Part shown: one piece after another, positions 23,827 through 56,749 of the stretch
Numbering within the stretch: position 1 is the first letter of the stretch
Layout: each line of letters opens with the position of its first letter
NCBI GenBank assembly: GCA_028687545.1
Contig: JAQTZZ010000006.1
Span: 62,001-126,000 of the forward strand
Reading direction: 5' to 3'
Length of the DNA: 64,000 bases
Source of the DNA: Candidatus Wallbacteria bacterium
Lineage (GTDB): Bacteria > Muiribacteriota > JAQTZZ01
Made by a program: the position numbers and the translations under genes
The notes under the pieces: model-generated
The model's input: only the letters and a program-made list of their open reading frames with translations
Told to the model about the DNA's origin: nothing
The model's database searches: none

Positions 23827-23912
23827 GGAGGGATGTCCGAATGGCTAAGGGGCCGGACTTGAAATCCGGTAAGGCGAAAGCCATCAGGGTTCGAATCCCT
23901 GTCCCTCCGCCA
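23827..23912 (+). tRNA. tRNA-Ser (anticodon UGA)
   Basis: GGAGGGA at the 5' end pairs with TCCCTCC; encoded GCCA end. Anticodon arm CCGGA-CTTGAAA-TCCGG gives TGA. A short variable arm is present, as in class II tRNA. Confidence 0.93.
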
Positions 23913-23913
23913 A

Positions 23914-24034
23914 CCAGTTTGTGAAATAGCCCGGCTGCGTCGTTGCCCTCGTCCTGCGCGGCTCAACGTACGTCAAGTACGCCTCGCCTTGCGCGGACTC
24001 GGGCGCCTATCATCCGAGCTATTTGACAAACTGG
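23914..24034. repeat. palindromic spacer element A1 between tRNA genes
   Basis: Terminal inverted repeats CCAGTTTGTGAAATAGC and GCTATTTGACAAACTGG (one mismatch) enclose a core containing CTGCGTCGTTGCCCTCGTC, CAACGTAC, GTACGCCTCGCC and ACTCGGGCGCC. The core is itself an imperfect palindrome centred on GTAC-GTCAA-GTAC. It matches element A2 in the core but not in the outer arms. Confidence 0.7.
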
Positions 24035-24069
24035 AGGATCCCAAGAGTGGATTTTCGGAGAAAAAAAAC

Positions 24070-24159
24070 GGAGAGGTACCCAAGTGGTCGAAGGGGTCGG
24101 TTTGCTAAACCGATAGGGTCTAAACAGCCGCGAGGGTTCAAATCCCTCCCTCTCCGCCA
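24070..24159 (+). tRNA. tRNA-Ser (anticodon GCU)
   Basis: 5' GGAGAGG pairs with CCTCTCC; encoded CCA. Anticodon arm TCGGT-TTGCTAA-ACCGA gives GCT, reading AGC/AGU. The extended variable arm is typical of serine tRNA. Confidence 0.94.
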
Positions 24160-24170
24160 AAAATATTGGA

Positions 24171-24247
24171 GCACCCGTAGCTTAGTTGGATAGAGCGTTG
24201 GCCTGCGGAGCCAAAGGTCGGTGGTTCGAGCCCACTCGGGTGCGCCA
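24171..24247 (+). tRNA. tRNA-Arg (anticodon GCG)
   Basis: 77 nt including CCA. Acceptor GCACCCG pairs with CGGGTGC. Anticodon arm TTGGC-CTGCGGA-GCCAA gives GCG, reading CGC (and CGU by wobble). Most bacteria read these codons with an ACG anticodon modified to inosine, so the G at position 34 is unusual. Confidence 0.9.
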
Positions 24248-24254
24248 TCCAATC

Positions 24255-24374
24255 GGCGTGTGAAAAATGCATTTCTGCGTCGTTGCCCTCGTCCTGCGCG
24301 GCTCAACGTACCTTTAAGTACGCCTCGCCTTGCGCGAACTCGGGCGCCTAGCATAAATACATTTTTGACACGCC
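24255..24374. repeat. palindromic spacer element A2 between tRNA genes
   Basis: Same core as element A1, with outer arms GGCGTGTGAAAAATGCATTT and AAATACATTTTTGACACGCC (two mismatches in 20). The arms differ from those of A1 but are again self-complementary. Confidence 0.7.
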
Positions 24375-24398
24375 TGGTTAGATTTTTCGCAATGATAC

Positions 24399-24489
24399 GG
24401 AGAGATGGCTGAGCTGGTCTAAGGCACTCGACTCGAAATCGAGAGTACGCTGAAACGTACCGTGGGTTCAAATCCCACTCTCTCCGCCA
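24399..24489 (+). tRNA. tRNA-Ser (anticodon CGA)
   Basis: 5' GGAGAGA pairs with TCTCTCC; encoded CCA. Anticodon arm CTCGA-CTCGAAA-TCGAG gives CGA, reading UCG. A long variable arm (AGTACGCTGAAACGTAC) is present. Confidence 0.94.
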
Positions 24490-24610
24490 TCTATAGCTGT
24501 TAGTAAATACGAGTGTAACGAGTATTTACTTACAGATATTGATCCCCGAAGTCCTGTCGCAGACAGGGCTGAGCGGGATAGCTGTTATAGCTGCAGGAAA
24601 TGAAATATAC
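24490..24610. repeat. spacer element B1 after tRNA-Ser(CGA)
   Basis: Starts with CTATAGCTGTTAGTAAATAC, a hairpin AGTAAATAC ... GTATTTACT, then GATATTGATCCCCGAAGTCC and a small stem CCTGTC-GCA-GACAGG. Nearly the same sequence follows the next tRNA at 24700. Confidence 0.65.
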
Positions 24611-24699
24611 GGAGAGGTGTCCGAGCGGTCTAAGGAGCACGCCTGGAGAGCGTGTGGATGTCAAAAGTCCCGTGGGTTCAAATCCCACCCTCTCCGCCA
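24611..24699 (+). tRNA. tRNA-Ser (anticodon GGA)
   Basis: 5' GGAGAGG pairs with CCTCTCC; encoded CCA. Anticodon arm CACGC-CTGGAGA-GCGTG gives GGA, reading UCC/UCU. It shares its T-arm and downstream spacer with tRNA-Ser(CGA). Confidence 0.94.
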
Positions 24700-43328: not shown

Positions 43329-44009
43329 ATGAATCATAAAGCAGTGACGATGATCGAATTTGTTCTGGCTGTGGCGGTGGTTGGAGCTTCGCTGGTCCCA
43401 ATCACCGGAAGCATGCTTTCATATTTCAAGAGGGTCAAGACCATTGAAGGCTCCCTTGGTTTCACGAATCGGGCTCAGGCGGTCCTGAATGCCCTGCTCG
43501 ATGATGTCAGTTTTGAGGTAGTTTATACACTTATGAAAGAAAAAGGCGGCGGGCATTGCGAGAATGTGATCGACCTTCAGGACAGAGCCTTCGCGTTGAT
43601 CACGGATCTGACAGATAAAAAATTGGTGAATCGTGACGGTAAGCAGATCTGTCCGCAAGATAATTCAGGACAGGAAAACACCCCTGAAGGGTTGTGGCGG
43701 GTGAGCGGCAATGGCACCTATTTCCGTTCGAACAAGGTCGATTACTACTTCACGTTGAAAATTACCAATATACCCCTGCAGTTTCACTGGAAACAGTATA
43801 AAACCAATGAAAACCACAATGAGGTCATCGGCTGGGAGATCAAACCGGCTGGAGTCGAACCCAATGTTCAGACTCTTGATGTGAACGACATCAAGAGGGA
43901 CATGTTTGTACAGCTGATTCTTTATGTGAAGTGGAAGGAATATGACCGTGACATGGAATATTCGTTCGTCACGTTCAAGGCCAATCTGGACAATTCCAAC
44001 GACAAGTAG
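43329..44009 (+). CDS. type IV pilus/type II secretion minor pilin-like protein (first of three)
   Basis: 226 aa with a class III prepilin signal: MNHKAVTMIEFVLAVAVVG, cleaved before V with Ala rather than Gly at -1, and Glu at +5. A hydrophobic helix follows, then a globular domain with a possible disulfide (HCENV ... KQICPQ). Similar in general shape to PilV/GspI-type minor pilins but not assignable. RBS AAGGAG is present. It is 8 bp before the next gene. Confidence 0.75.
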   Translation: MNHKAVTMIEFVLAVAVVGASLVPITGSMLSYFKRVKTIEGSLGFTNRAQAVLNALLDDVSFEVVYTLMKEKGGGHCENVIDLQDRAFALITDLTDKKLVNRDGKQICPQDNSGQENTPEGLWRVSGNGTYFRSNKVDYYFTLKITNIPLQFHWKQYKTNENHNEVIGWEIKPAGVEPNVQTLDVNDIKRDMFVQLILYVKWKEYDRDMEYSFVTFKANLDNSNDK

Positions 44010-44017
44010 GAGGAGAT

Positions 44018-44656
44018 ATGAATCGGAAGGGTATCGCGCTTGCTGTGGCAATGATTTTCATCTTCGTGGCCTTCGGCCTGATCCTTTTCATCTCCCAGCT
44101 CAACCGTTCCAATACGATTGACCAGGTGGTAGTCAGGGAAAATTACAGGGCCATCTATTTGGCCAAGGGAGCTATCCAGATGGCCATGCTGAAGACCAGG
44201 CAATTTCCCGAGGAACTGAGAGATGCCTGCTGTTTTTTTGACGCAAAGGGAACCATTGAAAACATGTCTGAAGCTTCGGGAGGGCTGGCGTCGGCTCCGG
44301 ATCGCCTGACCGTTCTCGGACTCAGAAATCCGGATGTCCCAGGCGACTGGATTCATGAAGGTGAATTTATCCGCGAACTGCAGATGAAGATGTTTAAAGG
44401 GGCAACTGCCGGCTGGAGCATGACCGAAGGTCTTACCTGCGACGGCCCGTTTACAGGCCAGTTTTTTGTGACTGAGTTGAGATTCATCACCAGGCGCTCA
44501 GGCAACCGTAATGATGCTGTGAAGATCAAGGTCTGGGCCAGAGAAGACAGCGGCAAGACGGTGGGTGAAGTCATGAGAAGCCGCGATCCGGTTCAGTTGC
44601 GTGAAGGCTTGAAAATTGAGGAAGTTCACGAAATTATACTTAAATATGGAGGATGA
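44018..44656 (+). CDS. PilX/GspK-like minor pilin (second of three)
   Basis: 212 aa. The N-terminus MNRKGIALAVAMIFIFVAFG has RKG before a hydrophobic helix but lacks the +5 Glu, as in PilX and GspK, which cap pilus tips. The globular part is unassigned. RBS AGGAGG precedes the ATG. It overlaps no neighbour and ends 4 bp before the third pilin start. Confidence 0.7.
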   Translation: MNRKGIALAVAMIFIFVAFGLILFISQLNRSNTIDQVVVRENYRAIYLAKGAIQMAMLKTRQFPEELRDACCFFDAKGTIENMSEASGGLASAPDRLTVLGLRNPDVPGDWIHEGEFIRELQMKMFKGATAGWSMTEGLTCDGPFTGQFFVTELRFITRRSGNRNDAVKIKVWAREDSGKTVGEVMRSRDPVQLREGLKIEEVHEIILKYGG

Positions 44657-44660
44657 TGAG

Positions 44661-45518
44661 ATGAACAGGCGGGGCATGTCTCTTGTGGAAATGATGATGG
44701 CCGTATTGCTTTGCGGCTTTTTCTTTGCTGCTTTATATCGTCTGCAGGCGTCCATGAACCGCACTACCGAGTTTGTCCGCTGGAAGACGCAATCCCAGGA
44801 TACAATCCGCAGATTTTATAAGGATTACCTGATTCCTGATATTAATAAAGCCACCTATCCGAGCACGATTGATGCGGATATGACTACGGTTCCAGATCCG
44901 ACAAATGCGATGAAATTACAATATCTAAAGGGTGGGGCGATTGACCCCAATGATCCCAATACCTCGATCATCAAGTTCGATTCCCTCTCAGACGGACAGA
45001 TCCTGATGAAATGGCAGATCAGCCACCCGGGAGTTACGGTTGATCTGGCTCAAGATCAGGGACAGAATGATTCAGATCCCTCCTTTGCTGCAGTTTGCGA
45101 AATAGTGGCCTATAAGAGATCTCCTTATGACACCAAAAGGCGGAATGTGATAGTGTATCGCCGTACCACTACTGATTCAACCATCATCAAGCCGGTCAAC
45201 GACAAAGTGATGGTGGAAAATGTGGAATACATCAAAATGTCCCACAGTCCCCGCTACAAACCCGCAGAAATCATCGCCATGAATGTTCTGCCCAACTCCA
45301 TCACGCCAAACAACCCGATGGGAGTTCCGATGGATCCCAGCGACCCTGATTACTTTCACACCTGGAACAATTCCGGCTCGATCAACATTGAAATCGGCCT
45401 GATCCAGGATGTAAGGGTCACTGTTCTTTTGACTGGCGGACCGCATAGATTCACAACCCAGGAAAAAGTATCAATCAAAACTAATGTGGAAATTATTCCT
45501 ACTGCTGGTTTTAATTAG
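44661..45518 (+). CDS. PilW/GspJ-like minor pilin (third of three)
   Basis: 285 aa from the ATG at 44661, which has GGAGGATG upstream. An upstream in-frame ATG at 44616 is less likely because it lacks a prepilin start. Prepilin motif: MNRRGMSLVEMMMAV, cleavage after Gly, Glu at +5. The globular domain is beta-rich and ends in repeated strands (VRVTVLLTGGPHRF, VSIKTNVEII), similar in style to the partial protein at 1-270. The next gene starts within it (35-bp overlap). Confidence 0.75.
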   Translation: MNRRGMSLVEMMMAVLLCGFFFAALYRLQASMNRTTEFVRWKTQSQDTIRRFYKDYLIPDINKATYPSTIDADMTTVPDPTNAMKLQYLKGGAIDPNDPNTSIIKFDSLSDGQILMKWQISHPGVTVDLAQDQGQNDSDPSFAAVCEIVAYKRSPYDTKRRNVIVYRRTTTDSTIIKPVNDKVMVENVEYIKMSHSPRYKPAEIIAMNVLPNSITPNNPMGVPMDPSDPDYFHTWNNSGSINIEIGLIQDVRVTVLLTGGPHRFTTQEKVSIKTNVEIIPTAGFN

Positions 45519-47082: not shown

Positions 47083-47159
47083 TGGTGGGCGATACTGGAA
47101 TTGAACCAGCGACCTCTGGCATGTGAGGCCAGCGCTCTAACCAACTGAGCCAATCGCCC
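47083..47159 (-). tRNA. tRNA-Val (anticodon CAC)
   Basis: 77 nt with encoded CCA. Acceptor GGGCGAT pairs with ATCGCCC. Anticodon arm CTGGC-CTCACAT-GCCAG gives CAC, reading GUG. Confidence 0.94.
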
Positions 47160-47358: not shown

Positions 47359-50277
47359 ATGACTTATATGAAAAATTTCTTCCTGGGCCTGCAGATCAAG
47401 CTCAACAAACTTACTGAAGAGAAATTTACACTCCCTATAGACGATTTTCTACGCCATGCTTTTATCTGCGGCTCTACCGGCGCCGGAAAGACGGTGATCG
47501 GCAAGATACTGGTGGAAGAGGCGGCAAAAAACGGTGTCTCTTCGATCCTGCTCGATCTCAAGGGCGACATTTCCTCAATGGCGATTCCATTCATCAATCT
47601 GATGCCTGATGAGGTGATTCCCTGGTTCCCGGTCGGGAAATCCGAGGAAGAGAAGCAGGAGGAATCGCGGGAATTCATCAACAATTATAAACAGAAACTG
47701 AAATTTTTCGGGATGGCGCAGGATTCGCTAAAGGAGTTCCGCCGCCAGAGTACTTTTTACATTTACACACCCCGGTCCCGCAAAGGTGACAAATTCAGCA
47801 TCTCAGAACTTTATTCCGGACCCGAAGACATCGAGAATTATTTCAGACAGGAGCCTGAGATAGTTGCGGGCATGATCCAGAATATGGCCCTGTCGGTCCT
47901 GAGCAGGATTTATCCGGACGCAGACCCCAGGCACATGATGATCGAAAATTCCTTTCTGGAAGAGATCATCAAGCATCTCTGGCTCGAAAAATCAAAATTG
48001 GAAGGGACAGCAGGCATCGAACGACTGATCGACGCGATTAAAACTCCTCCCTTTGAGAGAATCGGAAAACTCAAACTTGATGAGTATTTTCCAGAGGAAA
48101 AAAGGATGGATCTGGTGCGGAAACTCAATTCGCTGCTGCTGGGATCGCAGCGATGCTGGTTCGAGGGAAAGGCAATCTCGCAGATTGTGAAAGATGTTTA
48201 TGAAAGCAAGGAAACCAAGGTAGTAATCTTCAACCTGACTGAGCTGGATTCTTTCGCTGATAAAAGTCTGGTAGTTTCGCAGCTGGCTTACAGTATTTAC
48301 AATACATACCGGCGCACCCATTCCGATGAACTCCGGCTGCTGATTTACTTGGACGAGATTGGTGGAAGTGACAACAATGCCTTTTTTCCGCCTGAACCTT
48401 TCTACAACATTGCGAAACCTGCCTTGAATCTGCTCCTGCGTCAGGGAAGAGCTTTCGGAGTCGGAATGGTGCTGTCTACCCAGAATCCCGGGGACATCGA
48501 TTACAAGGGCCTGACCAATTGCCACTCCTGGTTCATCGGGCGGCTTCAGACGAGCGAAGACCGGCAAAAGGCCATGGAAGGCATTTCCCGTGCTGAAATG
48601 AAAATCGAAAAAGCCGAGGATTTTATCAGGGATGCCAAAGAAGGGTCGTTCCTCGTGCGCACTCGTTCAGGCAAAGTCCATCAGTTCATGGAACGCTGGC
48701 TTTACAGCATCCACAAGATAATGAGCGATGAGGAACTGGAGAATCTGAAGAAGGAGATGCAGCGGAAGCAGGAATATCTCCAGGCTTATCAGCTGTTCAA
48801 GGACGGCAGCATCGACGAAGCCATCAGCGTCTTCAGGGAATTGATCAGCAAGAATCCGACAGATCCAGGGAATTATTTCGATCTGGCGGAAGCGCTGAAA
48901 AAGAACGGGCGCGGAGCGGAAGCTCTTTCAACGCTCAGGATGGCTGAAACAGCGGGAATTTCCAATGAAACACTTTCGGTCAAGATTGGAGAGCTTCTCA
49001 ATGCTGAAAAAAAATACGATGAAGCCCGTGATTATTTTCTGAAAACCCTGGATCTGAACCCGGGCAACGATATCGCCCATTATTACCTGGGGTGTATTTT
49101 CCATCACTACCGCGATTACGATAAGGCACTGCATCATATCGCGATGGCCTGCAAGAATAATTATCAGCAGGACAGTTACTGGTATCAGAAAGCGTGGCTT
49201 ACATATGAGCGGGGTTCATACAACGAAGCCCTGAACTCCATTGAAGCCGCCCTGAATATAGTTCCTAACTCTGAAGAATATTATCTGTTCAAGGCACTTG
49301 TGTTTTATCGTCTGGGGAAAAAGGAAGAGACTGAGAAAATTTTACCTCAGAATATTTGCGAGAAGCCTTTGTATCATTATATCCGCGCCCTGCTTGAACT
49401 GGAACGCGGGAAGAAGACCGAAGCTGAAGCAGATCTTGCAGCAGCGCTCAAACAGGACCCCGGGTTTGTTCCAGCCCTGTTTGAGGCTGCCAGGATCAGT
49501 TTCGAGAACAAGGCTTATATCGAGTCCATCCAGATGCTCAACAAGGCGCTGGAACAGGAACCATATGAACCGGAATACTGGTATTATACCGCTAGAATCC
49601 TGAAGGAAGTGCGGCAGCCGGCCAAAGGACTGACCTGCCTGGAGAAAGCCCTCAAAGTCAAGGAAGACTATCGATTTTACTTCCTGCAGGGTGAGCTTCT
49701 GGAAATGCTCAACAAGAAACCTGATGCTTTTGCCAGTTTCGGAAAATCAATGGAATTTAATAAGAAGTACCTGCCTGCAACATTGCATCAGATTGAAATT
49801 TCCCTGTCTGATGACCCTCAGAAAGCCCTTGAACTATGCAAGAATGCTCTCAAGGGAGAATATGCGGAGAATCCTGATTTGTATCTGCTTAAAGCCAAAG
49901 CCCTGCTGGCGCTTAACTATACCAGGGAAGCCCATCAGAGCATCGACGAAAATCTGAAGATCAATTCCAAAGATGCAGAAGTCTGGATGTTCAAGGCCAG
50001 TATTTTTAAGAAGGAAGCCAACTGGCAGAAAATGATTGATCTTTATCAGGAAAACATCAAGACATTCGGCGATCAACCGCGCTTTTATCTTGGAATCCTC
50101 GAAGCCATGATCAGCGCCGGGAAGACCGATGATGCGGTTTCCTTCTGCGACAAGGCCCTGGAAGTATTCCCGGAAGACCTGGAGCTGTGGGAGGCCCTTT
50201 GCGGGATTTATCTGAAGCTGAAAGACGAGGATAAGGCGAATTACTGCAGAAGAATGATCTCTCAGTTGAAAGGATGA
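47359..50277 (+). CDS. HerA-type ATPase fused to a long TPR array
   Basis: 972 aa. The N-terminal ~450 residues form a HerA/FtsK-superfamily motor: Walker A FICGSTGAGKT (residues 36-46), LLDLKGD, Walker B LRLLIYLDEIGG (about 335), and the post-Walker B sensor VLSTQNPGDIDYKGL with an arginine-bearing FIGRLQTSEDRQKA. From about 470 to the end it has about a dozen TPR units (for example NYFDLAEALKKNGRGAEALS, AHYYLGCIFHHYRDYDKALH). There are no membrane segments, no relaxase or T4SS genes nearby. Start is ATG at 47359 or 47368. The cellular role is unknown; HerA relatives translocate DNA, and TPRs bind proteins. Confidence 0.8.
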   Translation: MTYMKNFFLGLQIKLNKLTEEKFTLPIDDFLRHAFICGSTGAGKTVIGKILVEEAAKNGVSSILLDLKGDISSMAIPFINLMPDEVIPWFPVGKSEEEKQEESREFINNYKQKLKFFGMAQDSLKEFRRQSTFYIYTPRSRKGDKFSISELYSGPEDIENYFRQEPEIVAGMIQNMALSVLSRIYPDADPRHMMIENSFLEEIIKHLWLEKSKLEGTAGIERLIDAIKTPPFERIGKLKLDEYFPEEKRMDLVRKLNSLLLGSQRCWFEGKAISQIVKDVYESKETKVVIFNLTELDSFADKSLVVSQLAYSIYNTYRRTHSDELRLLIYLDEIGGSDNNAFFPPEPFYNIAKPALNLLLRQGRAFGVGMVLSTQNPGDIDYKGLTNCHSWFIGRLQTSEDRQKAMEGISRAEMKIEKAEDFIRDAKEGSFLVRTRSGKVHQFMERWLYSIHKIMSDEELENLKKEMQRKQEYLQAYQLFKDGSIDEAISVFRELISKNPTDPGNYFDLAEALKKNGRGAEALSTLRMAETAGISNETLSVKIGELLNAEKKYDEARDYFLKTLDLNPGNDIAHYYLGCIFHHYRDYDKALHHIAMACKNNYQQDSYWYQKAWLTYERGSYNEALNSIEAALNIVPNSEEYYLFKALVFYRLGKKEETEKILPQNICEKPLYHYIRALLELERGKKTEAEADLAAALKQDPGFVPALFEAARISFENKAYIESIQMLNKALEQEPYEPEYWYYTARILKEVRQPAKGLTCLEKALKVKEDYRFYFLQGELLEMLNKKPDAFASFGKSMEFNKKYLPATLHQIEISLSDDPQKALELCKNALKGEYAENPDLYLLKAKALLALNYTREAHQSIDENLKINSKDAEVWMFKASIFKKEANWQKMIDLYQENIKTFGDQPRFYLGILEAMISAGKTDDAVSFCDKALEVFPEDLELWEALCGIYLKLKDEDKANYCRRMISQLKG

Positions 50278-50822
50278 GCCAATTGAGGTGCTGCCAGATG
50301 ATTAAATTCACAAATGTTGTTTTGATGATCATGGTTTTTTCAATCCATGCGAACGCAGAAGACAGGCAGAAGGCCTTGATCCTGCCGAAAATCCCGCTGA
50401 GTTACGCCTTTGCAGCTGCACATGGCGCAATCAAGGCAGAGGTAGATCCGGAAAAGATCACACTGGAAATGCAGGGCAAAAAACCGGTCTGGAAATTTAA
50501 TTACGGGATCAATGGAACTCTCAGGCAGGTCCTGGTGGACGGAGTCTCCGGCCGTGTGATAAAAAAAATCCGGCTTCAGGAAAAATCCGCACCTTTACGC
50601 AGGATCAGAAAACTGCCCTCCACAGTGGACGACACCGACAAAGTGCTGGCTGCAGCAAAAGCGCTGCGGGGTGATGATGGTCCGGCTCTGGGACTTTCGC
50701 TGGTGTCAGAGCAGAAAATCCTGTTCTGGTTGGTGGATTTCGAATCCGGAGAAGTGAAGCTGGACGGTGAAACCCTGAAGCTTTCTGAAGCCGGGACCAG
50801 CGAAGTCGAAGAGGGCCTGTAA
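50274..50822 (+). CDS. exported PepSY-like protein
   Basis: 182 aa with a signal peptide (MIKFTNVVLMIMVFSIHANA after an upstream M). The body has the PepSY-type pattern WKFNYGINGTLRQVLVDGVS then GRVIKKI, and a weaker second copy near the end (LFWLVDFESGEVKLDGE). PepSY domains often restrain proteases. The ATG overlaps the HerA-TPR stop by 4 bp, which links the two in one transcript. Confidence 0.6.
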   Translation: MSQLRCCQMIKFTNVVLMIMVFSIHANAEDRQKALILPKIPLSYAFAAAHGAIKAEVDPEKITLEMQGKKPVWKFNYGINGTLRQVLVDGVSGRVIKKIRLQEKSAPLRRIRKLPSTVDDTDKVLAAAKALRGDDGPALGLSLVSEQKILFWLVDFESGEVKLDGETLKLSEAGTSEVEEGL

Positions 50823-55634: not shown

Positions 55635-55914
55635 CTGGAAATTAGCGAGTTTCATTGGTGTTATACTGTCGGCGGTCGTGTTGGTTTTCGCTGGTTTAAA
55701 GAACGGGTATGTTGTAGGAATCGAAAAAGCCTTGATCGGATTGGCCGGAGGTTTTGTTTTTGGCGGCGGGCTGGGAGAAATCCTCTGCCTTTTATTTCCG
55801 GAACTGAAGATGGAACAAGGCGAGGATAAGGAAAGAACAGATTTCATCTTTCCTGAACTCGATCCGGATGAAAAAAGTGTGAACAAAGAAAATGAGTGTA
55901 AAATCAGTCGATAA
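55618..55914 (+). CDS. small membrane protein of unknown function
   Basis: 98 aa with two hydrophobic segments (about residues 9-27 and 34-58, the latter glycine-rich) and an acidic C-terminal tail. Overlaps both the preceding unknown gene and fliA, which supports it being translated. Confidence 0.55.
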   Translation: MLSRFSWKLASFIGVILSAVVLVFAGLKNGYVVGIEKALIGLAGGFVFGGGLGEILCLLFPELKMEQGEDKERTDFIFPELDPDEKSVNKENECKISR

Positions 55915-56749
55915 GGGGTTTTCAACGGTAAGAACAGCAGCTGAACCTTCATTATCATCGCTTGTTTCCGGTAAACGAGGGGGAATCGTGTCTGAAGAAG
56001 AACTGAAACTTTGGAATGACTATAAGGAAAACCAAAACCCAAAGGCCAGGGAGCGGTTGATAGTCAAATATACCCCTTTCGTCAAGCTGATCGCAGGCAG
56101 AATGGCGATGAACCTTCCCAAGAACATTGAAGAAGGGGATCTGATGAGTTACGGCATGCTCGGCTTGATCGATGCAGTTGAAAAGTTTTCCCTGGATAAG
56201 AACGTCAAGTTCGAAACGTACGCCCAGCTGAGGATCAATGGTGCCATCCTGGATGAATTGCGCAATCTGGACTGGGCTCCCAGATCCCTTCGCCAGAAGA
56301 TGCGCGTACTGGAAAAAATCACAGATGACCTTTCACAGAAACTCGGGCGTACTCCGAATGATGAAGAGATTGCCCGGGAAATGAACATCCCTCTTGAAGA
56401 ATTATATAAATTGTATAATGAAACAAAGAAATCCCTTTTGCTTTCACTGAATGAAATATACGAGGACGAGGAATCCAGCTCGTCCAGACTCGATTTCATC
56501 AGCGACAACGGGCGCAACTCTCCACAGGAACTCCTGGAAAGCCAGGAACTCAAGGATATGCTTGCCAATGCTCTGGAAGAACTTTCAGAGCGTGAGAAGC
56601 TTGTTGTCACGCTGTATTATTACGAAGAATTGACCTTGAAAGAAATCGCCCAGATCCTCGGAGTTACGGATTCCAGGGTTTCACAACTTCATACAAAGGC
56701 TATTCTAAGGTTGCGCGGCAAGCTGGGGAAAATGCGGAAATCTGATTAG
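55892..56749 (+). CDS. fliA: flagellar sigma factor FliA (sigma-28, WhiG class)
   Basis: Directs RNA polymerase to late flagellar and chemotaxis genes. Region 2: GDLMSYGMLGLIDAVEKF and FETYAQLRINGAILDELRNL. Region 3 includes GRTPNDEEIAREM; region 4: LTLKEIAQILGVTDSRVSQL. The N-terminus is ~35 residues longer than in typical FliA; an in-frame GTG at 55988 (SEEELKLWN) is a possible alternative start. It precedes fapA. Confidence 0.93.
   Translation: MSVKSVDKGFSTVRTAAEPSLSSLVSGKRGGIVSEEELKLWNDYKENQNPKARERLIVKYTPFVKLIAGRMAMNLPKNIEEGDLMSYGMLGLIDAVEKFSLDKNVKFETYAQLRINGAILDELRNLDWAPRSLRQKMRVLEKITDDLSQKLGRTPNDEEIAREMNIPLEELYKLYNETKKSLLLSLNEIYEDEESSSSRLDFISDNGRNSPQELLESQELKDMLANALEELSEREKLVVTLYYYEELTLKEIAQILGVTDSRVSQLHTKAILRLRGKLGKMRKSD

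Follow-up and report, generated by a model that had tools for sequence, protein, structure and literature searches.

A HerA-superfamily ATPase without a HAS barrel carries a TPR array at its C-terminus in Candidatus Wallbacteria

A gene in a 64,000-nucleotide stretch of the Candidatus Wallbacteria chromosome (referred to below as the window) encodes a protein of 972 amino acids in which a HerA/FtsK-type ATPase, residues 1-462, is followed directly by a TPR array that extends from about residue 469 to residue 972. Relatives of the motor are widespread, chromosomal and present in single copy, with a usual tail other than TPR, so that the novelty is a tail swap in a widespread, unnamed and HAS-less branch of the HerA superfamily and does not amount to evidence for a new system. 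The coordinates of the gene, its domains and motifs and the nearest neighbouring features are given in Table 1.

Table 1. Coordinates in the window of the ATPase-TPR gene, its parts and adjacent features.
Feature	Position	Strand	Evidence
Whole gene, HAS-less HerA/YjgR-type ATPase plus TPR array, 972 aa	47359..50277	+	ORF, Pfam, six other Wallbacteria genomes
ATPase domain, residues 1-462	47359..48744	+	Pfam DUF87 above cut-off; AF2; PDB fold matches
Walker A, GSTGAGKT, residues 38-45	47470..47493	+	G38, T40, G41, G43, K44 and T45 invariant in 62 homologues
DLKGD motif, residues 66-70, common to YjgR	47554..47568	+	D66, K68, G69 and D70 invariant; aligned with DVKGD of YjgR 11kk
Insert of mainly helical structure, residues ~96-283, lying between Walker A and Walker B where HerA has its helix bundle	47644..48207	+	AF2 secondary structure; HerA layout (PMC9960219)
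Walker B acidic pair, D332 E333	48352..48357	+	Invariant in 62 homologues
RQGRAFG motif, residues 361-367, with invariant R364; counterpart of HerA REGRKYG	48439..48459	+	Alignment to PDB HerA chains
STQNPGDIDY motif, residues 373-382 (QNP in YjgR, QRP in HerA)	48475..48504	+	Homologue and PDB alignments
TPR array, residues 469-972, ~14 units by length, 8 clear	48763..50274	+	Pfam TPR models; signature scan against shuffles; dN/dS
PepSY-like exported protein ORF, 4-nt overlap	50274..50822	+	Pfam PepSY E=2.8e-4, under curated cut-off; 1 of 40 phylum genomes
tRNA-Val(cac), between the ATPase-TPR gene and the upstream pseudopilin cluster	47083..47159	-	ARAGORN

The reading frame contained no internal stops, and the gap of about 350 bp to the next upstream ORF held the tRNA-Val gene on the opposite strand. 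A search for the fusion in other genomes, as proposed with the original prediction, found it in six further Wallbacteria genomes, and in total 7 of the 40 phylum genomes, from 3 of the 8 families, carried it as a single-copy gene of 972-987 aa without internal stops. All seven share the junction between ATPase and TPR. Comparisons within a genus represented by four genomes gave dN/dS values of 0.046-0.080 in the ATPase part and 0.049-0.103 in the TPR part, where one additional pair was saturated, and both halves of the fusion are thus under purifying selection. The unbroken joining of a HerA-superfamily ATPase to a TPR array, as originally predicted, was accordingly borne out by the intact ORF and by the succession of HerA and TPR matches in Pfam.

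Pfam assigned the ATPase only to broad HerA domain families. The DUF87/HerA central domain matched residues 25-310 with 39.6 bits (cut-off 23.2) and HerA_C matched residues 18-76 with 34.1 bits (cut-off 22), the best stretch of the latter being positions 8-66 of the 502 profile positions. The key residues of the Walker A, Walker B, RxGR and QNP motifs were invariant or nearly so across 62 homologues, and the putative sensor and Arg roles of the motifs are plausible. An AF2 model built from the 62-row alignment (mean pLDDT 93.7, pTM 0.92) showed a soluble domain of the RecA-like type in which no membrane segment was obvious. The top PDB fold matches of the model were all HerA proteins, with Sulfolobus HerA as the best (E=1.5e-13), followed by SIR2-HerA, Thermococcus HerA-NurA, Deinococcus HerA and DUF4297-HerA, and dsDNA-bound HerA-NurA and DUF4297-HerA complexes were among these top matches.

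Proteins of the HerA type are ring-shaped ATPases through which dsDNA is threaded, and three parts make up HerA itself, namely the HAS barrel, the RecA-like core and a bundle of helices (PMC9960219; PMC11291478). The HAS barrel is the docking site both for NurA (PMC9960219) and for DUF4297 (PMC11291478). The present protein was first described as a complete HerA-like motor, which was true of Walker A, Walker B and the RecA-like core but not of the barrel. Only about 31 residues, forming one beta hairpin in the AF2 model, precede the Walker A strand and the HAS barrel is therefore absent; Walker A begins at residue 38, compared with positions near 140-170 in the HerA chains of the PDB, and none of the separate upstream ORFs supplies a barrel. 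The protein is consequently not a canonical HerA. It shares the RecA-like core and the helical insert with Sulfolobus HerA (4d2i) and Deinococcus HerA (7wrw), which gave the best fold matches, but it differs from them in the missing barrel, in having QNP for QRP and in residing in a genome without NurA.

The nearest anatomy is that of YjgR (HerA_C, PF05872; PDB 11kk, an entry with six chains), which also has no HAS barrel, has Walker A near the N-terminus and shares the KGD after strand 2, the DE of Walker B and the QNP motif. YjgR is however a protein of ~500 aa without a TPR tail, and its profile of ~500 residues was matched partially, over residues 18-76, and not over its full length. The alignment to 11kk was made up of two short blocks, and in the tree YjgR and the Wallbacterial ATPase were separated by very long branches. 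No paper on a HerA-TPR fusion or on the function of YjgR was found in the literature that was searched.

In the C-terminal half, for which a domain search had been suggested, tandem 34-residue repeats passed the Pfam TPR cut-offs, and many TPR families matched between about residues 470 and 950 (TPR_19, E=1.4e-36 and 125 bits; TPR_16, 100 bits). The 504 residues divided by 34 give about 14 units, and 8 units fitted at least 6 of the 8 TPR signature positions, compared with 1.5 on average in shuffled sequences; with these counts the earlier figure of ~12 units is in range. Between phylum families the TPR halves were only 17-21% identical, compared with 41-46% for the ATPase, and for this reason one conserved TPR partner is not indicated. 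The TPR half scored 48.9-68.6 bits against the other fusions outside G001, the closest relative, and at most 40.9 bits against TPR paralogues of the host genome, in searches whose settings differed. In the tree a single branch (87/78; 94% of bootstrap trees) set all TPR-bearing rows apart from the rest. These results fit a single fusion event followed by fast divergence of the TPR half.

Relatives of the ATPase were found at no fewer than 585 candidate loci in the genome collection, and the treed members span at least 15 phyla, with one archaeal record included. In the broad sample 35 of 382 genomes matched at E<=1e-25, of which 7 were Wallbacteria and 3 (G067, G166 and G302) were both partial and distant matches. 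The remaining 25 among ~340 non-Wallbacterial genomes correspond to a frequency of 7% in the broad bacterial sample. Most members form an unnamed family of ~800 aa (alignments A2 and A5), which shares with the Wallbacterial protein a full-length ATPase (mostly 27-34% identity), the motifs and the position of the junction, but where Wallbacteria have TPR this family has a beta plus coiled-coil module (A6). This other C-terminal module followed the junction in 75 of the 78 loci from outside Wallbacteria, and two of the three exceptions are cut off at the end of their contig. Its AF2 model (mean pLDDT 90.3) shows a beta domain together with a long, antiparallel coiled coil, and a PDB fold search with it gave zero matches at E<=0.001. 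Cultured bacteria with an ~800-aa homologue include Desulfoprunum benzoelyticum and Arcobacter caeni. The module also contains a Gly-rich stretch, GTTxLGALLGRK (L042:8335-9342; A6).

Some relatives have neither tail. The nearest relative outside the phylum (G070) is extended at the N-terminus and lacks a C-terminal module; its placement and the root of the tree are uncertain, because branches are very long with the two YjgR-like outgroups used. The G070 ATPase gene is followed at a distance of 127 bp by a gene for a 246-aa protein (L040:1639-2379, minus strand), in which an N-terminal HTH and a PD..EVK pattern resembling a PD-(D/E)XK nuclease core were recognised by eye. This protein had no Pfam or PADLOC matches and no homologue beside other family members. 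Two distant relatives with a Ser-rich insert, G166 (L166:2285-5011, minus strand) and G302 (L167:2424-5363, plus strand), have an apparent C-terminal winged helix instead of TPR as read from the sequence.

Across 93 loci no neighbour was constant; what recurred was limited to clusters of a generic kind, such as kinases and ABC transporters, and to synteny within lineages (leuS in families f4 and f6), and a closely spaced co-directional neighbour was missing in 27 of the 63 loci with both neighbours. The suggestion that the fusion could be part of a new system found no support, since there was no conserved partner gene. In G001 the upstream gene order was that of the window and there was no co-directional downstream gene. 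The coupling to a PepSY-like exported protein was confirmed as a 4-nt ATGA overlap for the longest ORF, but this arrangement is private to the host genome, and an internal ATG at 50298, which would give a more typical signal peptide, is the likelier start. Since none of the other genomes among the 40 searched in the phylum had the gene, a partnership with the PepSY-like protein was rejected. In the f4 genus a SpoIID-like gene is located upstream of the ATPase gene. Three consecutive pseudopilin-like genes lie upstream in the window (43329-45518, plus strand) in an order that is kept in G001, and elsewhere in the window four tRNA-Ser genes and one tRNA-Arg gene are clustered (23827-24699, plus strand).

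The reported lack of a nearby NurA gene could be extended to the whole host genome (97% complete), in which NurA (PF09376) was absent, whereas the same profile was found in 7 of 14 control genomes; pairing with NurA was consequently rejected. A second HerA-like protein, of 592 aa, is encoded in the host genome (G000:C29; L001:982-2760, minus strand), and in it a long N-terminal region precedes Walker A. Its gene overlaps an upstream ORF of 332 aa and the two look like a two-gene HerA pair.

The reading we favour, in which our confidence is evenly divided, is that the protein is a single-copy chromosomal HerA/FtsK ring ATPase, probably a dsDNA translocase, with a TPR array that docks partners. 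Six subunits would assemble into a ring, and ATP would be hydrolysed at the subunit junctions while the ring draws a polymer, for which double-stranded DNA is the likeliest candidate, through its central pore. The six TPR superhelices may dock one or more cytosolic proteins and thereby bring the motor to a site or cargo, so that the docking task of the HAS barrel in known HerA complexes would have moved to the C-terminal TPR. Given the loss of the barrel used for docking and the presence of TPR repeats at the C-terminus, recruitment of partners has probably shifted to that end, and the original idea of a partner recruited by the TPR part appears sensible in this light. DNA is the likeliest substrate because of the HerA fold and of weak hints of DNA association, seen by eye, in distant relatives (the winged helix of G166 and G302, and the HTH and PD-(D/E)XK-like neighbour of G070); ssDNA, RNA or unfolded polypeptide might serve instead. 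A cellular role, presumably in DNA maintenance, is favoured over defence or transfer because the gene is single copy, chromosomal, under purifying selection and nearly absent from mobile elements. The searches gave 2 weak matches in 72,556 plasmid records, 0 matches in 50,697 phage records and 5 relatives in 2.9 million viral contigs.

It is unlikely, though less so than the other alternatives, that the protein is an envelope-linked or protein-remodelling ATPase whose ring acts on polypeptide or at the inner membrane and whose TPR array serves to bind proteins of envelope assembly. In each of the three Wallbacterial families there are members with a gene for an exported-looking protein directly downstream, and this gene differs each time: PepSY in the host, a BON-domain protein that overlaps the 3' end of the ATPase gene in G006, and in the f4 genus a TPR protein of 1.7 kaa, 37-81 bp downstream in 4 of 4 genomes (L036:711-6053, minus strand; L035, L037 and L038, the L038 copy being cut by the contig end). 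The superfamily also includes VirD4-type and secretion ATPases, and TraD and VirB4 models were among the weak matches. The pattern of exported neighbours is however near background, given that ~30-55% of neighbouring ORFs look exported in a crude signal-peptide scan, and it does not extend to G001. The soluble model without an obvious membrane segment and the fold matches to HerA DNA motors also argue against this reading.

Still less probable is a role in anti-phage defence, for which the ATPase would bring in an effector through its TPR part in the manner of Sir2-HerA or DUF4297-HerA. TPR and HerA domains each occur in defence proteins, which counts for this explanation, and the PADLOC HerA and mad8 models gave weak matches of 43 bits each. 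The DUF4297-HerA and Sir2-HerA complexes likewise combine a HerA-type ring ATPase with a protein partner, but that partner is encoded by a separate gene, and here neither the barrel on which known effectors dock nor such a gene is present. The PADLOC scan of eight window neighbours gave one match (55892-56749, plus strand), which was partial and more than 5 kb away; no effector model was found among the adjacent genes, and neighbours vary between loci. The matching gene encodes a 285-aa protein that scored 48.6 bits against the PADLOC model of MzaA, in the C-terminal portion of that model. The single copy, the strong constraint on both halves, the scarcity on plasmids, phages and viral contigs and the separate HerA-like protein at C29 with its long N-terminal region all speak against defence, and the original mention of mobile or defence systems thus found no sign in its favour.

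A component of a mobile or conjugative element, such as a coupling protein or helicase, is very improbable: TraD/VirD4 and VirB4 are in the same superfamily, but there were essentially no matches to mobile or viral records, an origin from which was rejected, and the neighbourhood common to the window and G001 is chromosomal, with genes for gyrase, dciA and maf. That two separate genes were joined by an artefact of assembly or gene calling, or by a frameshift, which was named at the outset as fatal to the prediction, has a practically negligible chance of being the explanation: nothing was found in its favour, the junction recurs in seven intact copies with no internal stops, and both halves have a dN/dS of about 0.05-0.10.

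We tentatively raise the possibility, which is more doubtful than the translocase reading itself, that the ~800-aa family and the TPR form of Wallbacteria together make up a single, so far undescribed class of chromosomal ring motors, whose docking function has passed from the N-terminal HAS barrel to an exchangeable C-terminal module, and which would constitute a general DNA-maintenance machine with clade-specific adaptors. The ATPase has no curated family in NCBIfam and no close relative in the PDB, yet it occurs in ~7% of a broad bacterial sample, while the TPR fusion itself was found solely in Candidatus Wallbacteria, one poorly known phylum. With its fixed junction, this natural tail swap provides a clean route to the role of the tail in a HerA-type motor.
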